NCBI GenBank assembly: GCA_003054495.1
Contig: CP028514.1
Location: 2,062,001-2,126,000 of the forward strand
Direction of reading: 5' to 3'
Source: Carboxydocella thermautotrophica
GTDB taxonomy: Bacteria; Bacillota; GCA-003054495; Carboxydocellales; Carboxydocellaceae
DNA: 64,000 nucleotides
Shown piece after piece: positions 22,446 through 46,590 of the stretch. Each line of letters begins with the position of its first letter. Within the stretch, counting starts at the first letter, position 1. The position numbers and the translations under genes are program-made. The notes beneath the pieces are model-generated. The model worked only from the letters and a program-made list of their open reading frames with translations. It searched no databases and was not told the DNA's origin.

Positions 22446-22521
22446 TCACTGTCCCCTCGATTGTGCTGTGTGTGATTGTGTAATATACTATCGGGGACCA
22501 GGAATCCGGGTGCCAGTCCCA

Positions 22522-22550
22522 TTGCTTTTGCCCGGTTAATCAGTCATAAT
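22522..22550 (+). promoter_or_regulatory. Promoter of the 81-residue membrane protein gene
   Basis: -35 TTGCTT (22522-22527), 17 bp spacer, -10 CATAAT (22545-22550), followed by AAAGGAAGGAG and ATG at 22587. Confidence 0.55.
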
Positions 22551-22586
22551 AGAAGTGTGAAGAAGTCCCAAAGGAAGGAGACGCTC

Positions 22587-22832
22587 ATGAGAGAAAAAGC
22601 TAAAAAGCTGTTGCGCCTCAGCCTGGGCCTGATTTTTCTAATCCTGGGCATCGCCGGTCTCTTTTTACCAGTTCTGCAGGGAATTCTGTTTTTGCTGCTG
22701 GCCCTCTATTTGCTGGCCCCCGATTGGCCCTGGGCCCGGAAATGGCAAAAAAAATTACAGGCCAGATATCCCGGCCTGGCTAATAGATTGCGTTTCTGGA
22801 AGGGACCGCTGAAAGGCATTTACGGCAAGTAA
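22587..22832 (+). CDS. Small two-helix membrane protein (DUF454/PGPGW-like)
   Basis: 81 residues from ATG 22587 with GGAAGGAG upstream. A basic N-terminus MREKAKKLLRLSL leads into two hydrophobic segments (GLIFLILGIAGLFLP and GILFLLLALYLLAP) joined by a turn, then an amphipathic basic tail. The G-x-x-G-L-F-L-P turn resembles DUF454/YbaN and PGPGW membrane proteins; no function is known. Its last 13 bases overlap the convergent yigZ gene. Confidence 0.7.
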   Translation: MREKAKKLLRLSLGLIFLILGIAGLFLPVLQGILFLLLALYLLAPDWPWARKWQKKLQARYPGLANRLRFWKGPLKGIYGK

Positions 22833-23440
22833 CAGCTTTCCCCCCATTCCACCTGCAGCTGTCCCTGCCCCAGTTCCGCCACTTCCTTTTCCAGCTTGTT
22901 TTGCAGCTCAGGGAGTAACCAACCCCTTACCTGGACTTCTGCTCCATAAAGCGGTTCTTCCAGTTTACCCTCCAACTTTTCCAGCAGATGGAGGATGGAG
23001 CCCAAAAGCGGGTAAGGAACTATAATGGTAAATCGCCGATAAAGGTGATAGGTAACAATCCCGGCTGCCTCCAGCCCCTTAACGGCACTTTCCGTATAAG
23101 CCCGCACCAGGCCCCCTGCTCCCAGCAAAGTGCCGCCAAAATAGCGGGTCACTACCAGTACGCAGTTGGTTACCTCCTGTTTGCGCAATACCTCCAGTAC
23201 CGGCATGCCGGCTGTTCCCGCCGGTTCGCCATCATCACTGAACCTTTCTGCCGGTACCGGCATTCCCACCCGCCAGGCTGGAACATTGTGAGTAGCATCC
23301 CAGTGTTTTTTGCGAATAGCCTCGACAAATTCCTGGGCTGCCTCGGCAGTTTCCACAGGCTTTACATAACAGATAAACCGGGATTTTTTGATCACAATTT
23401 CCGCCACCGCTTCCCGGCCTACCGAACGATAGCTGTCCAT
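22820..23440 (-). CDS. YigZ/IMPACT family protein
   Basis: 206 residues. The N-terminal UPF0029 domain has KKSRFICYVKPVE, ATHNVPAWRVG, FSDDGEPAGTAGMPVLEVL and VVTRYFGGTLLGAGGLVRAY, the diagnostic IMPACT blocks; the C-terminal DUF1949 domain follows (about 135-206). Eukaryotic IMPACT modulates Gcn1/Gcn2; bacterial YigZ/YvyE function is unresolved. ATG 23440 with GAAAGGAAGG upstream. Confidence 0.93.
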   Translation of the reverse strand: MDSYRSVGREAVAEIVIKKSRFICYVKPVETAEAAQEFVEAIRKKHWDATHNVPAWRVGMPVPAERFSDDGEPAGTAGMPVLEVLRKQEVTNCVLVVTRYFGGTLLGAGGLVRAYTESAVKGLEAAGIVTYHLYRRFTIIVPYPLLGSILHLLEKLEGKLEEPLYGAEVQVRGWLLPELQNKLEKEVAELGQGQLQVEWGESCYLP

Positions 23441-23470
23441 CCCTTGTCCTTCCTTTCTCTTTCTGTTTTC

Positions 23471-24187
23471 CTATGGCCAGAGACTGAGAAAATAACGTCC
23501 TTCCCGCAACAGATGTTCCGGCCAGTCAGCCGGAAAAACCGCCAGCAACTGACACCGTCTGGCCCGCCGCGCTACTTTTTGTTTGTATTTCAACACCGCC
23601 AGCACCGTTTCCCGGCTATCCGCCAATGCCTGGCCCAGGGTGAGGGGGAAATCTCTATCCTGCCCCACCAGAGACTCCCAGTTACTCAGAGTCAGGCGAC
23701 ATCGTTCCAGTCGCCGCAACAACAGGGCTGCTTCAGCCTGAAGTAACTGTTCCGTAGGATCCAGCTGCTGGCTGAGCAGTTGCAGGTGTTCAGCAAAAAT
23801 ACGTAACCAGAATAAACTCTCCCTTAACTGTCCCAGGCGGGCATGGGGGTTACCGGTGGCACTCAACCGCAATAACTGACAGAAAAAGCGGGTCTCCCGG
23901 GCCCAGTGGTCCACCAGCAGGGGATACAGGCTGGCCTGCACCTGACAGCGCAACATGCGATAAAGCAAACGCCGCAGCCAGCGGCAGGTTTCCCGGGCCA
24001 GGGCCAGAATATCTGCCTTGCTGACAAAATAGCCTCCCCGCAGCTGGTCCTGCACGGCCTGGAGGCGTTGTTGAATTTGTTCCGCCTCCTGCCGCCAGGC
24101 TTTTTCCCCTTCCGCCAGCCGGTTTTTCGCTGTCTGCAGATGTTCCTGTAATATTCCCAGCCAGAAGATTAGTTCTTCCTGTGGCAT
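23471..24187 (-). CDS. DUF2935-type helical protein
   Basis: 238 residues from ATG 24187, which follows GGGGGGAGGAAA; a longer frame to 24229 has no ribosome site. Two repeats of a helical unit carry E-x-x-FW motifs: EELIFWLGILQEHLQ (residues 4-18) and RESLFWLRIFAEHLQL (about 122-137), with RETRFF between. The acid/His spacing in a four-helix bundle recalls ferritin-like metal sites and DUF2935 proteins. No function is established. It is divergent from, and immediately next to, the manganese riboswitch. Confidence 0.7.
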   Translation of the reverse strand: MPQEELIFWLGILQEHLQTAKNRLAEGEKAWRQEAEQIQQRLQAVQDQLRGGYFVSKADILALARETCRWLRRLLYRMLRCQVQASLYPLLVDHWARETRFFCQLLRLSATGNPHARLGQLRESLFWLRIFAEHLQLLSQQLDPTEQLLQAEAALLLRRLERCRLTLSNWESLVGQDRDFPLTLGQALADSRETVLAVLKYKQKVARRARRCQLLAVFPADWPEHLLREGRYFLSLWP

Positions 24188-24260
24188 TTTCCTCCCCCCA
24201 GTACCTGTCTTCTGCTTCAATGTATGCACCCCTGGGCAGGATAGTGCATATATTGCCAGT

Positions 24261-24372
24261 GTAAAGGGGAGTAGTTGGTGGTATTAACCTGCCACAGGCA
24301 GAATCGACATACTGGTAGCAATACCCGGTTCTGCCACCGTCCAAACCCGGGGACGGGCAACGAGACCTTTAC
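24261..24372 (+). promoter_or_regulatory. yybP-ykoY manganese riboswitch aptamer
   Basis: On the plus strand: GTAAAGGGGAGTAG at the 5' side (24261-24274), CATACTGG and CCCGGTTCTGCC in the middle, a CCGTCC / GGACGG hairpin, and ACGGGCAACGAGACC with CCTTTAC (24366-24372) at the 3' side. P1 pairs GTAAAGG with CCTTTAC. These conserved blocks are those of RF00080, which binds Mn2+. P1's 3' strand also belongs to the following terminator, so Mn2+ should turn transcription on. No plus-strand gene lies downstream for over 2 kb; the RNA would run antisense through mntH. Confidence 0.85.
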
Positions 24373-24404
24373 CTCGACTGCAGGTCGGGGTAAAGGTCTT
24401 TTTT
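24363..24404 (+). terminator. Riboswitch-controlled terminator
   Basis: AGACCTTTACC (24363-24373) pairs with GGTAAAGGTCT (24389-24399), followed by TTTTTT. The 5' arm overlaps aptamer P1 (24366-24372), so aptamer folding and terminator are mutually exclusive. On the reverse strand the same hairpin is not followed by a T-run. Confidence 0.9.
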
Positions 24405-24428
24405 CTGTGAAAAGGGGAAATGGGGGGC

Positions 24429-25667
24429 TCACCCCCCAAAACCGCTCAATAATAGTATGCCGTTAAAAGCCAGCACCACAGTCACCACACTCCAGCCCAG
24501 CAGCTGTTCCCAGGGCCGGTCCGCCAGTTCCCCCAGTAAATCCCGGCGCCGGGTCAGCAGAAGCAGCGGCACAATCGCCCCTGGCAGGGCAAAACTCAAG
24601 ACCGCCTGGCTGAACACCAGGGCCTGCAGGGGATCGGCTGCCCAGAGCAAAACCGCCAGAGCCGGGCCCATGACCAGAAGCCGTCGCCAGGTCACAGGCA
24701 GGTCAAGGCCGATAAAGCCTTTTAGCACCAGCTGGCCACTCATCGTCCCCACCACAGAGGAGGAAAGGCCGGAAGCCAGCAGGGCAATGCCAAACACCAG
24801 CTGGGCCAGACTGCCCAGCATTGGCTGTAAACTGTGGTAAGCACCGGTCAGACTGTTTACTGCAATCTCCTGCCGGTGGAAAACTGCCGCTGCCACCACC
24901 ACCATGGCCCAGTTGATGAAAAAGGCGGTATTCATGGCCAGGGCAATATCCCGGCATTCCCAGCGAAACAGCTGGCGTAAAAAATCTGCAGATGCTCCCT
25001 GGGGGCGCCGGTCCAGCACCAGCTGAGAATGCAAAAACACTACATGGGGCATTACCGTTGCCCCCAGCATAGCCACCGCTACCAGAATCGAGCCGGCAGG
25101 CAAACGGGGAATTACTGTATGGGCCAGCACCTGCGGCCAATCAGGTTTGGCCAGAAACAATTCTATCACATAACAGAACCCAATTAAAGCTACAATGGTG
25201 CCTATCACTATTTCCAGCAGTCTTTGCCCATAGCGTTCCAGGGCCAGAATGGAAACAGTCACCACCGCTGTCAATAGCCCGGCCAGCCAGAGGGGAACCC
25301 CAAGCAGCAAATAAAACCCCAGGGCCGCTCCCAGAAATTCAGCCAGATCAGTAGCCATAGCGGCGATTACCGCCAGTAACCATAACAGGCGATTGACTCC
25401 TGGCCGAAACTGTTCCCCGCACAGTGTGGCCAGGTCTTTCCCGGCGCCAATCCCCAGTTTGGCTGACTGGCGCTGCAGAAAAATTGCCATTAAATTGCTG
25501 AGCAGCAGTACCCAGAGCAGGCTGTAGCCGAAACGGGCTCCCCCTTCCAGGTTGGCAGCAAAATTGCCTGGATCGACATAGGCCACCGCTACCACCACGG
25601 CCGGGCCCAGGCTGGATAGCCAGCTGCGGCGGGCAGGTACAGCTGCCAGATATGTCGCTGTCTTCAA
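24429..25667 (-). CDS. mntH: NRAMP-family Mn2+/divalent metal transporter
   Basis: 412 residues, about 11 hydrophobic segments. The metal-site motifs are present: helix 1 VAYVDPGNFAANLEGG (about 28-43) and helix 6 AMLGATVMPHVVFLHSQL (about 198-215). Proton-coupled Mn2+/Fe2+ uptake by family. Start TTG 25667 with GGGG nine bases upstream. In the 5' UTR CTGTCA and TGACAG (25686-25691, 25710-25715) form an inverted repeat. Its 3' end has GGGGGG-CTCA-CCCCCC at the stop codon, and beyond it lies the convergent manganese riboswitch. Confidence 0.93.
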   Translation of the reverse strand: MKTATYLAAVPARRSWLSSLGPAVVVAVAYVDPGNFAANLEGGARFGYSLLWVLLLSNLMAIFLQRQSAKLGIGAGKDLATLCGEQFRPGVNRLLWLLAVIAAMATDLAEFLGAALGFYLLLGVPLWLAGLLTAVVTVSILALERYGQRLLEIVIGTIVALIGFCYVIELFLAKPDWPQVLAHTVIPRLPAGSILVAVAMLGATVMPHVVFLHSQLVLDRRPQGASADFLRQLFRWECRDIALAMNTAFFINWAMVVVAAAVFHRQEIAVNSLTGAYHSLQPMLGSLAQLVFGIALLASGLSSSVVGTMSGQLVLKGFIGLDLPVTWRRLLVMGPALAVLLWAADPLQALVFSQAVLSFALPGAIVPLLLLTRRRDLLGELADRPWEQLLGWSVVTVVLAFNGILLLSGFGG

Positions 25668-25738
25668 CCGGCATCACCCCCCGTTCTGTCAGGACTTCAT
25701 TTCAGCCTATGACAGAGGGGGTAAAAGGGTGCTATTGC

Positions 25739-26083
25739 CTACAAAATAACAATCGTTATTCCCGGATTACCCCGGTCCAGGTCCCGGTCCCCTTTCAGTT
25801 CCGGCACCAGTTCCAGAGCCCTCCGCCCTTCCGGCGTAAAGATGGACCATTTATCACCGGAAACAAAGTGACGAATTAAGCCTGAGCGGCGGTGAGCAGC
25901 CAGGGCTTTTTGCATTTCCCCCCGCAAAGTGCCACCCACCCCACTGGAACCGTAGCCGTGGATTACTTTTACTGCCTTGGCCCGCCGGGCTTTGGCACCC
26001 CGCAGGGCCTGCAGCAAGCGCAGCCGGGCCTGCTCCACCGTGGGCATGCCTTGCTCAATATTGGCTGTTTCCAGAATCGCCAT
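25739..26083 (-). CDS. Small Smr-domain protein
   Basis: 114 residues: an Smr domain without MutS. ARLRLLQALRGAKARRAKAV leads into the core VKVIHGYGSSGVGGTLRGEM (about 42-61), the H-G-x-G nuclease loop, then HFVSGDKWSIFTPEGRRAL. The LDLHG motif that usually opens the domain is replaced by ANIEQGM. May nick DNA or RNA like other Smr proteins. ATG 26083 with GAGGTGACC upstream; 71 bases before mntH on the same strand, so possibly co-transcribed. Confidence 0.75.
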   Translation of the reverse strand: MAILETANIEQGMPTVEQARLRLLQALRGAKARRAKAVKVIHGYGSSGVGGTLRGEMQKALAAHRRSGLIRHFVSGDKWSIFTPEGRRALELVPELKGDRDLDRGNPGITIVIL

Positions 26084-26273
26084 CAGTGGTCACCTCGTGT
26101 CATAATATCTCCCCTAACATTATTTTAACTCTAAAGAGTCGTAGTGTCTTCTTTTTTTTGCAATATCATACCTAAGAACTTTGAACCTTAGCAAACATTA
26201 AAAAGTGTTAGTTATCTAAAATAGAAGACTTCTCAAAAACTTCATGCTTCAGCGCTGACTTTTCAATAAATGA

Positions 26274-26332
26274 TTGACAAAGCGAATTTAGTGAATTATA
26301 ATAATAAAAGAATACATATACGGGGTATATGT
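26274..26332 (+). promoter_or_regulatory. Promoter and operator of the sulfur operon
   Basis: -35 TTGACA (26274-26279), exactly 17 bp, -10 TATAAT (26297-26302). Twelve bases on is a perfect dyad ACATATAC-GGG-GTATATGT (26314-26332), at the expected start point, as for a repressor site. The half GGGGTAT recalls CsoR/CstR-family operators, which control persulfide genes, but the resemblance is partial. The leader before the first ATG is about 250 bases. Confidence 0.8.
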
Positions 26333-26558
26333 AATAACTTAAAATACGGATTAAGTAGTATGATAAAGTTTTCCCTGCGTCAAATAATTTATAAAAAACA
26401 AAAATATAAAGTGACGGGGGAAATTTATTAAAACTTACATAATACCAATCTAAGATGTATCAAGGTGGTGAGAATCTCAAAAAGGTAAGAAAATTTGTCA
26501 AATAAAAAAGCGGTTGAAAAGATTCACAAAACTAAACTAAAAAAGGAGAGAAGATAAA
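26333..26558 (+). other. Long AT-rich 5' leader of the sulfur operon
   Basis: About 225 bases between the operator and the dsrE-like start. I see no ORF with a ribosome site, no strong terminator and no riboswitch class that I recognise. Purine-rich AAGGTGGTGAGAATCTC (26463-26479) resembles a Shine-Dalgarno without an obvious ORF. The gap from the Smr gene to the promoter (26084-26273) is also AT-rich and empty. Confidence 0.4.
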
Positions 26559-26954
26559 ATGGAACAACCAAAATTAACTGTTATCCTTATTTCCGGAGAA
26601 ATGGAAAAATTACATGCAGGTTGCTTGGTGAGCTCAGTAGCTGCCGTATCCGGCATGGAAGTAAACATTTTTGTAACAATGGATGCACTTAAAGCTTTCC
26701 GCAAAGATGTAATTGAATCCAAAAACTTCAAAACCGGTGAAATTGGCCAAGAGATGCTCAATAAGAACGTTGAACTTTTTTATCAGTTGTTAGAAAATGC
26801 AAGAGATATGGGCACCTGTAATGTATACGGTTGCGCAATGGCAATGGACTTAATGGAATGGAAGAAAGAAGATTTAGTAGACGTATTTGATGATATTATC
26901 GGTGTCACTGCTTTCCTTGGTAAAGCTGTAGGCAGTCAAATTATTGTAATGTAA
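26559..26954 (+). CDS. DsrE2/3-like sulfur carrier protein
   Basis: 131 residues. LTVILISGEMEKLHAGCLVS at the start and NVYGCAMAMDLMEWKKEDLV near 88-107 match DsrE2/DsrE3-type proteins, in which the Cys before MSMD-like residues carries a persulfide. A second Cys (GTCNVYGC) lies four residues upstream. With TusA next door it likely relays sulfane sulfur in the cytoplasm. Strong AAAGGAGAG upstream of ATG 26559. The AT-rich codon use differs from the surrounding chromosome. Confidence 0.82.
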   Translation: MEQPKLTVILISGEMEKLHAGCLVSSVAAVSGMEVNIFVTMDALKAFRKDVIESKNFKTGEIGQEMLNKNVELFYQLLENARDMGTCNVYGCAMAMDLMEWKKEDLVDVFDDIIGVTAFLGKAVGSQIIVM

Positions 26955-26973
26955 ATTAAAGGAGGGTAATAAT

Positions 26974-27213
26974 ATGTCTGAAGTACAAATTACAAAAACT
27001 ATTGATGCTCGTGGTGCATTTTGTCCAGGACCATTGATGGAGTTAGTAAAAACAATTAAAAGAGGTAACGTTGGCGAAGTATACGAATTGTTATCCAGTG
27101 ACAGTGGTTCGGCTAAAGATGTTCCGGAATGGGTTAGCAAGATGGGACATGAGCTTGTTTACAGTAAGCAAGACGGGAATTTTTGGCGTATAGCTGTTAA
27201 AAAATTGAAGTAA
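26974..27213 (+). CDS. tusA: TusA-family sulfurtransferase
   Basis: 79 residues. The TusA signature is present as DARGAFCPGPLMELVKTIK (about 11-29), with the persulfide Cys in C-P-G-P rather than the commoner C-P-x-P with Pro after Met. It ends VYSKQDGNFWRIAVKKLK, the usual last strand. Persulfide transfer in the cytoplasm; the partner is presumably the DsrE-like protein encoded 20 bases upstream. AAAGGAGGG precedes ATG 26974. Confidence 0.9.
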   Translation: MSEVQITKTIDARGAFCPGPLMELVKTIKRGNVGEVYELLSSDSGSAKDVPEWVSKMGHELVYSKQDGNFWRIAVKKLK

Positions 27214-27248
27214 TTTATTTTTTATTTTCGCACAGGGAGGTGAACCTG

Positions 27249-28388
27249 ATGGCCAAACGCATTATCGTTTTAGGGAGTGGCGTGGCTGGTAGCATGGTGG
27301 CCAACCGCTTGGCAAAATCCATGCAAAAGGAAATATATAGTGGCGAAGTAGAAGTGTTGGTTATTGGGAACAAAAAACAGCACCTTTATCAACCTGGTTT
27401 TTTATTTATGTCCTTTAACGAAGGCACATTAGAGCAATTTTCCAGGGAACAAAAACATCTTTTACATCCAAAGGTTAAGTTTATACTTGAAGAAGCAACA
27501 AAAATTGATACAGCCAACAACACTGTAACCACTACTAAGCAATCCTATAATTATGATTTTCTGGTGATTGCAACGGGGTCGTACCCGGATTTCAATTCAG
27601 TTCCCGGGCTGGCTGAGGCTTCACATAATTTCTATACGCCTGAAGGTGCTGCGAAGTTACGTGATGAACTCTTCAAATTTAAAGGTGGTACAATCTTAAT
27701 GACCATAGATGTTCCACACAAGTGTCCTGTTGCTCCGCTTGAGTGGATTTTTATGGCAGATGAACTGTTCAGAGATTTAGGAATTCGCGATAAAGTAACA
27801 CTTAAGTATACTTATCCTATTGGCCGTATTCATTCTCTGGAACCTGTTGCCGAATGGGCAGAGGCGGAATTTGAAAAACGCGGCATCGAGTATGAAGTTT
27901 TCTTTAATCTTGAAGAAGTTGATCCAAACAAAAAACTGGCATACAACATGGACGGAACCGCGCATCCTTATGATTTGCTTATCTCCGTACCGGCGCATGT
28001 CGGAGCAAAAGTGGTTAGGGATTCCAATATTGGAGATGAAGACGGATTTATTCCCACTGACCGTTACAGTTTAAAAATGATTGGTCAAGACAATGTTTAT
28101 GTTTTAGGTGATGCAACCAATCTTCCAGTAAGTAAAGCTGGTTCTACTGCCCATTATCAGGCGGATGTAGTTGTTAAAAATATTATTAGCCAGATAAAAG
28201 GACTCCCTGCTTCTCATCGTTACAGCGGTAAAGCGTTTTGCTTTATTGAGTCAGGTTTGAATGAGGCAACCTATATTTGGTTTGATTATAAGACACCACC
28301 TCAACCTATGCCATCTTCTGAAATGTTGCACTGGTTTAAGCTTGCTTACAATGAATTGTACTGGTTATCCGTTCGTGGGATCATGTAA
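27249..28388 (+). CDS. Sulfide:quinone oxidoreductase-like flavoprotein
   Basis: 379 residues. FAD-binding IIVLGSGVAGSMVANRLA at residues 4-21, the second dinucleotide motif FLVIATGSYPDF near 102, and a FAD site NVYVLGDATNLPVSKAGSTA near 280. The redox Cys of SQR appears as PHKCPVAPLEW (about 156-166); another in FCFIESG near 330 is at the place of the third SQR cysteine. The C-terminal amphipathic stretch could touch the membrane. Start ATG 27249 (GGGAGG nine bases upstream) over GTG 27240. Oxidises sulfide to polysulfide with quinone or another acceptor; acceptor unknown in an anaerobe. Confidence 0.85.
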   Translation: MAKRIIVLGSGVAGSMVANRLAKSMQKEIYSGEVEVLVIGNKKQHLYQPGFLFMSFNEGTLEQFSREQKHLLHPKVKFILEEATKIDTANNTVTTTKQSYNYDFLVIATGSYPDFNSVPGLAEASHNFYTPEGAAKLRDELFKFKGGTILMTIDVPHKCPVAPLEWIFMADELFRDLGIRDKVTLKYTYPIGRIHSLEPVAEWAEAEFEKRGIEYEVFFNLEEVDPNKKLAYNMDGTAHPYDLLISVPAHVGAKVVRDSNIGDEDGFIPTDRYSLKMIGQDNVYVLGDATNLPVSKAGSTAHYQADVVVKNIISQIKGLPASHRYSGKAFCFIESGLNEATYIWFDYKTPPQPMPSSEMLHWFKLAYNELYWLSVRGIM

Positions 28389-35389: not shown

Positions 35390-35688
35390 AAATAAAATAA
35401 GCTTCGTCCCAAAATAATGGGACGAAGCCTGTGCTCCGCGGTACCACCCAGTTTCCGGCTGATAGCCGGCACTCATTAAGCATACGGGACCGTAAGTCCG
35501 ATATGCCCCCCGGGATAACGGTCAGGGTGACCGGCCGCACCTACTGGCCGAAATGGCGTTCAGCTGGCTGCTCAGGAGGGAACTTCGCTACGGCTAACCT
35601 GGCAGGGCTTCCAGTCGCCGACCCCGCCTCCCTGGGAGGTATGACCCGTGCTACTTTTCTCCGTCATCGCTTTTTATTACTTTGTTTG
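35390..35688 (-). promoter_or_regulatory. T-box leader, specifier UUC (Phe)
   Basis: Reverse strand: stem I begins GATGACGGAGAAAAGTAGCA; the T-box GGGTGGTACCGCGG lies at 35436-35450; the terminator GCTTCGTCCC / GGGACGAAGC (35401-35428) is followed by a T-rich run. Aligning stem I with the thrS leader of this window (both have GCCCTGCCAG then 16-17 bases) puts the specifier at complement 35580-35582, which reads UUC. Uncharged tRNA-Phe should thus switch on aroF-pheS-pheT. Confidence 0.92.
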
Positions 35689-46321: not shown

Positions 46322-46590
46322 ACCAAAAATAAAAAGCTTTCATCCCTATGGGACGAAAGCTCTGCTTCCGCGGTTCCACCCAAATTGTTTTGCCAGCTGG
46401 CAAAACCTCTCCATCCCGATAACGGCGGGCGCCGTCCGTCACTACTCACCAACCGGTTTTGGCAACGGCACTCCGGGGTGGTTTCATCTGCTCCTCTCCC
46501 TGGCAGGGCTTGCAGCCGGTGACCCCGCCTCTCTGGAAGGAGGTAAGAGAGACTACTTATCCCCATCCTCGCTTTCACTTGATTATACAT
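46322..46590 (-). promoter_or_regulatory. T-box leader of thrS, specifier ACC (Thr)
   Basis: Reverse strand: T-box GGGTGGAACCGCGG (46369-46382), terminator GCTTTCGTCCC / GGGATGAAAGC (46336-46360, one mismatch) then T-rich, and stem I with GATGAAACCACC whose ACC at complement 46480-46482 is the specifier. A promoter with -10 TATAAT (46589-46594) and a weak -35 TTGCAG (46612-46617), spacer 17, sits at the end of the DUF445 gene. Uncharged tRNA-Thr would allow read-through. Confidence 0.93.

Follow-up and report, generated by a model that had tools for sequence, protein, structure and literature searches.

The window, a 64,000-nt stretch of the Carboxydocella thermautotrophica genome (contig CP028514.1, positions 2,062,001 to 2,126,000), was found to carry a whole manganese riboswitch, aptamer plus terminator, at 24261-24404 of the plus strand, and a convergent mntH gene directly beyond it (Table 1). 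The mntH protein matched the NCBIfam model 'Mn(2+) uptake NRAMP transporter MntH' above the model cut-off. The gene ended 25 nt past the U-tract of the riboswitch terminator, and about 57 nt separated the end of the aptamer from the mntH stop codon on the opposite strand. Both the plus-strand aptamer with its overlapping terminator and the convergent mntH, with no plus-strand gene over the next 2 kb, had been described in a first-pass annotation of this DNA, and both were confirmed. A hidden plus-strand gene was considered and rejected, as neither the list of open reading frames nor the promoter and terminator scan gave a credible one between 24405 and 26559. The next credible gene, at 26559 (+), possessed a perfect promoter of its own (TTGACA-17-TATAAT, 26274-26302). 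The scan of positions 22500-27300 gave no plus-strand terminator-like site besides that of the riboswitch. Hence, the element lay on the opposite strand within 500 nt of the 3' end of its presumed target and served no sense gene, which are two of the marks of an antisense-acting riboswitch (PMC9943018); the third, a ligand-dependent antisense transcript by which the target is reduced, is predicted here.

Table 1. Features of the riboswitch-mntH locus (positions in the window)
Feature	Position	Strand	Basis or remark
Probable -10 box (TATATT) of a promoter proper to the riboswitch	24249-24254	+	Highest-scoring promoter-like sequence ahead of the element
yybP-ykoY Mn2+ aptamer	24261-24372	+	RF00080, own covariance model, fold, covariation
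Intrinsic terminator (expression platform)	24362-24404	+	18-bp stem (24362-24400), 3-nt loop, T6
Predicted antisense read-through region with Mn2+ bound	24405-25667	+	Inferred: no further terminator-like site, no credible gene before 26559
Hairpin GGGGGG-TGAG-CCCCCC, with the stop codon of mntH inside	24422-24437	-	Sequence only
mntH, Nramp-family Mn2+ importer, presumed target	24429-25667	-	PF01566, E 1.6e-118; NCBIfam MntH

The hairpin at the mntH stop codon is possibly a weak minus-strand terminator of mntH; it was not reported by the terminator scan. An inverted repeat, AATAAC-N4-GTTATT, was also noticed at 25745-25760, where it might be an operator; it precedes the start of mntH by some 80 nt and lies at the end of a Smr-domain gene.

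The riboswitch was matched by the RF00080 (Manganese) model at 24254-24428 (+) with 35.8 bits and an E value of 3.2e-8. Since the curated gathering score of this family is 45 bits, the element was missing from a default Rfam scan. Two other RF00080 elements of the same genome also scored below 45 bits (31.0 and 25.4 bits) and preceded genes in the normal manner, namely a Na/Ca-exchanger-like gene and a LemA-like gene. A covariance model of our own, built from 13 relatives with the window element among them, gave the latter 84.5 bits, with an E value near 1e-18 in a search of 0.88 Mb. The fold of the full element had a z-score of -5, and none of 200 shuffled sequences was equally stable. A chance match or an overcalled riboswitch was ruled out by the model score, the fold z-score and the covariation described below. 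A second genome of the species (G341) was identical across 24003-25007.

Besides a P1 helix of 7 bp (24261-24267 paired with 24366-24372), the aptamer contained P2 and P3 as well as a fourth hairpin. The conserved L1 loop was present (GGGGAGUAG), and the L3 loop, AUCGACAUACUGG, belonged to a class of its own. The final 11 bases of the aptamer, which overlap the 3' strand of P1, were at the same time the opening bases of the terminator stem. When folding of the growing transcript was followed step by step, P1 was kept to about position 24384 and was wholly replaced by the terminator at 24401. The expression platform and P1 were therefore mutually exclusive, as is characteristic of the yybP-ykoY class. 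The -35 sequence of the candidate promoter was weak (TGCACC, with an 18-nt spacer). The promoter scores upstream of 18 antisense elements showed a modest excess, with a mean of 9.06 versus 8.17 in shuffles.

The L3 loops of 75 elements sorted by gene context were compared. Every antisense element, that of the window included, carried the signature AUCGACA[U/C/A][A/G]CUGG. The switches linked to UPF0016 genes had UCAACA in this loop (18 of 18), and most of those linked to TerC, Na/Ca-exchanger or P-ATPase genes had UCGUCA. The L3 of the window was nearest to the UPF0016-linked class, in which the element of locus L095, for instance, precedes a UPF0016 gene. The only UPF0016 (GDT1) exporter gene of the window's genome was located at G000:C1:1840450-1840962 (-), locus L097, overlapping the end of a radical-SAM gene; unlike in relatives, no riboswitch was detected there. 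In this genome, the Mn riboswitches L005 (C1:1232219) and L178 (C1:1494012) stood before a LemA-like/TPM pair and before a Zn-metalloprotease-like gene, respectively, neither of which belongs to the usual transporter targets.

The conservation of the convergent layout was investigated by searching 80 mntH loci from GTDB genomes with our riboswitch model. In three of them (L026, L028 and L030, from one Bacillota MAG and two Selenomonadales MAGs), this riboswitch pointed at mntH from the opposite strand. When riboswitch-model matches were joined with Nramp matches in a 300-genome sample of that class, 14 convergent riboswitch-mntH pairs were recorded in 13 genomes among the matches listed, with 195-259 nt between the end of the aptamer and the end of the Nramp domain. 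Additional convergent pairs were observed in L122 (G141), in L125 (G045, where mntH was truncated) and in G446. In total, a convergent switch stood at the mntH 3' end of at least 15 genomes besides that of the window, all of them Negativicutes-like wherever a name was given. Among the matches listed for 398 genomes from the phylum to which the window belongs, this arrangement occurred only in G000 (the window's genome), G341 and G446. Based on these two surveys, the layout was rare in general but common within a single clade, outside of which, among the matches listed, it was present in Carboxydocella only. The genes past the riboswitch varied between the loci while the mntH-riboswitch pair stayed, which identifies mntH as the constant partner.

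Within the 18 antisense elements, 98.6% of the aptamer cells paired and nine pairs showed two-sided changes (0 of 500 shuffles), the corresponding values for the terminator being 99.3% and three pairs (2 of 500 shuffles); the weight of these counts is limited by relatedness, because some of the two-sided changes set the window apart from the remaining members. Selection on aptamer and terminator alike is nonetheless the simplest reading of the alignment. In the mntH tree, the gene of the window formed a long branch, and a single clade with the other riboswitch-paired mntH genes was neither rejected nor established (AU p = 0.457).

The riboswitch was absent from three mntH genes within the same subfamily (L174, L175 and L176). 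On the 3' side of each of them, a convergent mntR gene took its place. The products of these mntR genes had the domains of the DtxR family, and their nearest NCBIfam model was MntR, with scores below the model cut-off. The three mntH genes nested inside the antisense clade of the tree with good branch support; a constraint making the antisense mntH genes a sole clade was not firmly rejected (AU p = 0.088). A search with the L174 protein as the query (at least 55% identity) detected MntR in 4 of the 18 antisense genomes (G042, G063, G157 and G169) versus all 4 genomes with mntH of the same subfamily and no switch seen, among them G094, in which the contig ends near the locus (Fisher p = 0.0096, the genomes not being independent and the absences of MntR or switch being soft because many members are draft genomes). 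A DtxR/MntR gene adjoined mntH in 21 of 30 clostridial loci versus one of the 18 antisense genomes (G169). The whole genome of the window contained no PF02742 protein at all, and a MntR overlooked by one model was discarded as an explanation, as a protein query from the related clade also found none. Most likely, the riboswitch does for mntH what MntR does elsewhere, so that Mn uptake would be reduced when Mn is plentiful.

It was proposed that transcription from the putative promoter just upstream of 24261 would produce a short leader from the plus strand, opposite to mntH. At little Mn2+ the terminator would form, transcription would stop, and mntH would be freely expressed. With ample Mn2+ the aptamer is expected to dock and P1 to be stabilised, so that the terminator could not form and the polymerase would cross the 3' end of mntH in the antisense direction. 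Such transcription would lower mntH output by polymerase collision, by sense-antisense RNA pairing, or by both, and the outcome would be a protein-free, Mn2+-dependent repression of uptake. The window element should be an ON switch because, in the yybP-ykoY riboswitch of Lactococcus lactis, Mn2+ stabilises the switch helix P1.1, which blocks the terminator and causes read-through (PMC11087558); the Lactococcus switch controls its downstream gene in sense, unlike the element described here. The binding of Mn2+, the promoter activity, the read-through and the decrease of mntH are what we infer from the layout. The anatomy fits the Mn-ON antisense feedback suggested in the first-pass annotation, and we consider it probable that the element is switched on by Mn2+ and that the resulting read-through represses mntH via antisense RNA or polymerase collision. 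The weak -35 sequence, the MntR of four antisense genomes, the limited spread of the layout and the lack of enrichment of antisense yybP-ykoY elements in a published survey (PMC9943018) speak against this proposal.

Three other explanations were weighed against this proposal. The riboswitch might be a functionless relic, which once led an exporter gene since lost or moved, as the first-pass annotation had offered for an alternative. By the similarity of L3, in which the window is closest to the UPF0016-linked switches, the former exporter would probably have been UPF0016, and the only such gene of the genome does lie elsewhere without a detected riboswitch. However, the aptamer and the 18-bp terminator are intact, the antisense elements form an L3 class of their own, and at least 15 further genomes show the convergent arrangement at mntH, where the stems covary and the neighbours change. 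Its conservation in a second lineage argues against a relic, and we regard this origin as improbable. The nearest case to an element of this kind standing before an exporter gene in a relative, an arrangement which the first-pass annotation had taken to speak against antisense action, was found in L171 (G055:C3:174000-184000). There, an antisense-class riboswitch faces a decayed C-terminal fragment of mntH, and a MntP-like gene follows further on in sense. This locus is possibly a step from antisense to sense use, and its arrangement looks secondary.

The RNA itself could also be the product, with either the terminated transcript or a small protein made after read-through acting in trans. The terminated RNA would indeed be stable, structured and about 140 nt long. 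Against this, no plus-strand open reading frame was common to the antisense loci, many of which had no sense frame of at least 80 aa starting within 420 nt; those frames that did occur were located in the GC-rich sequence antisense to mntH, and mntH is the constant partner. A product acting in trans is accordingly thought unlikely. The convergent promoter and hairpin might instead serve mainly as a Mn-independent boundary, limiting read-through from mntH into its neighbour. Past the end of mntH, the minus strand of the window has its next gene from 24187 on, and the terminator-like hairpin of mntH is no more than weak. A conserved, covarying Mn aptamer and a terminator exclusive with P1 would be superfluous for a boundary, though, and in L026, L028 and L030 mntH seems, judging by sequence, to have its own terminator hairpin ahead of the riboswitch. 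We give this function very little credence.

The repression of mntH by antisense transcription is, as a prediction, already known for this locus. The first-pass annotation had regarded this use of the riboswitch as not previously described; however, Serrano-Gutierrez and Merino (2023) predicted an antisense-acting yybP-ykoY element at CFE_2050 of C. thermautotrophica 019 and proposed that it limits Mn uptake, thereby preventing Mn overload (PMC9943018). The species is the same, and, by the gene and the layout, so are the locus and the proposed role. As presented there, CFE_2050 is a computational call in a single genome, while here the arrangement is conserved elsewhere, has its own L3 signature and alternates with mntR. 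According to the same source, 292 antisense-acting riboswitches were proposed, only two having been experimentally described before, and the yybP-ykoY class comprised 5 antisense versus 1,907 sense elements without enrichment (P = 1.00). The two precedents, as summarised in that paper, are a SAM (S-box) riboswitch antisense to ubiG-mccBA of Clostridium acetobutylicum and a B12 riboswitch antisense to pocR of Listeria monocytogenes. The former likewise consists of a riboswitch and a terminator convergent at the 3' end of the target, but it is an OFF switch, in which the ligand stops the antisense RNA and raises the target, whereas in the window the ligand should start the antisense RNA and lower the target. 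The latter also controls an antisense RNA against a convergent gene, but its ligand terminates this RNA, and the target is a regulator rather than a transporter of the ligand.

In the literature searched, no experiment on the antisense Mn switch was found, nor was any account of the conserved subclass, its L3 signature or the alternation with mntR; some members of the subclass may be listed in the supplementary table of PMC9943018. What appears to be new here is the comparative evidence, with a layout conserved in a second bacterial group, which argues against a relic. On balance, we lean towards a broader reading, in which a dedicated and ancient L3 subclass, antisense only, acts as a Mn-responsive repressor of mntH that is interchangeable with MntR, having been replaced in place by a convergent mntR within one clade, and that is switched on by its ligand, opposite to the two experimentally described cases. 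If the antisense mechanism is true, bacteria without MntR can shut off Mn uptake by RNA alone, and the ligand and aptamer that turn exporters on have been reused from the other strand against an importer. The swap of antisense riboswitch and mntR at one position would be a natural experiment, making the role of an antisense-acting riboswitch directly testable.

Some further arrangements of Mn riboswitches and Nramp genes were observed. A sandwich layout of about 2.5 kb was present in G042:C41, G043:C34, G097:C39 and G121:C14 (L107-L110, L123 and L124), in the order of an upstream sense Mn riboswitch, mntH, and an antisense Mn riboswitch facing back. Among the sandwich loci read, the sense switch preceded a gene of the UPF0016 exporter family in L109 and L110. 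A sense Mn riboswitch was also located 1.1-2.1 kb upstream of Nramp genes of another subgroup (L112, L113 and L140; G097:C8, G121:C3, G116:C122 and G161:C103), with a TerC-family gene lying between the two in the loci read. This suggests an Nramp protein that may be Mn-induced. Elsewhere in the window, two T-box leaders scored above the Rfam cut-off, at 35415-35676 (-) and 46346-46578 (-).
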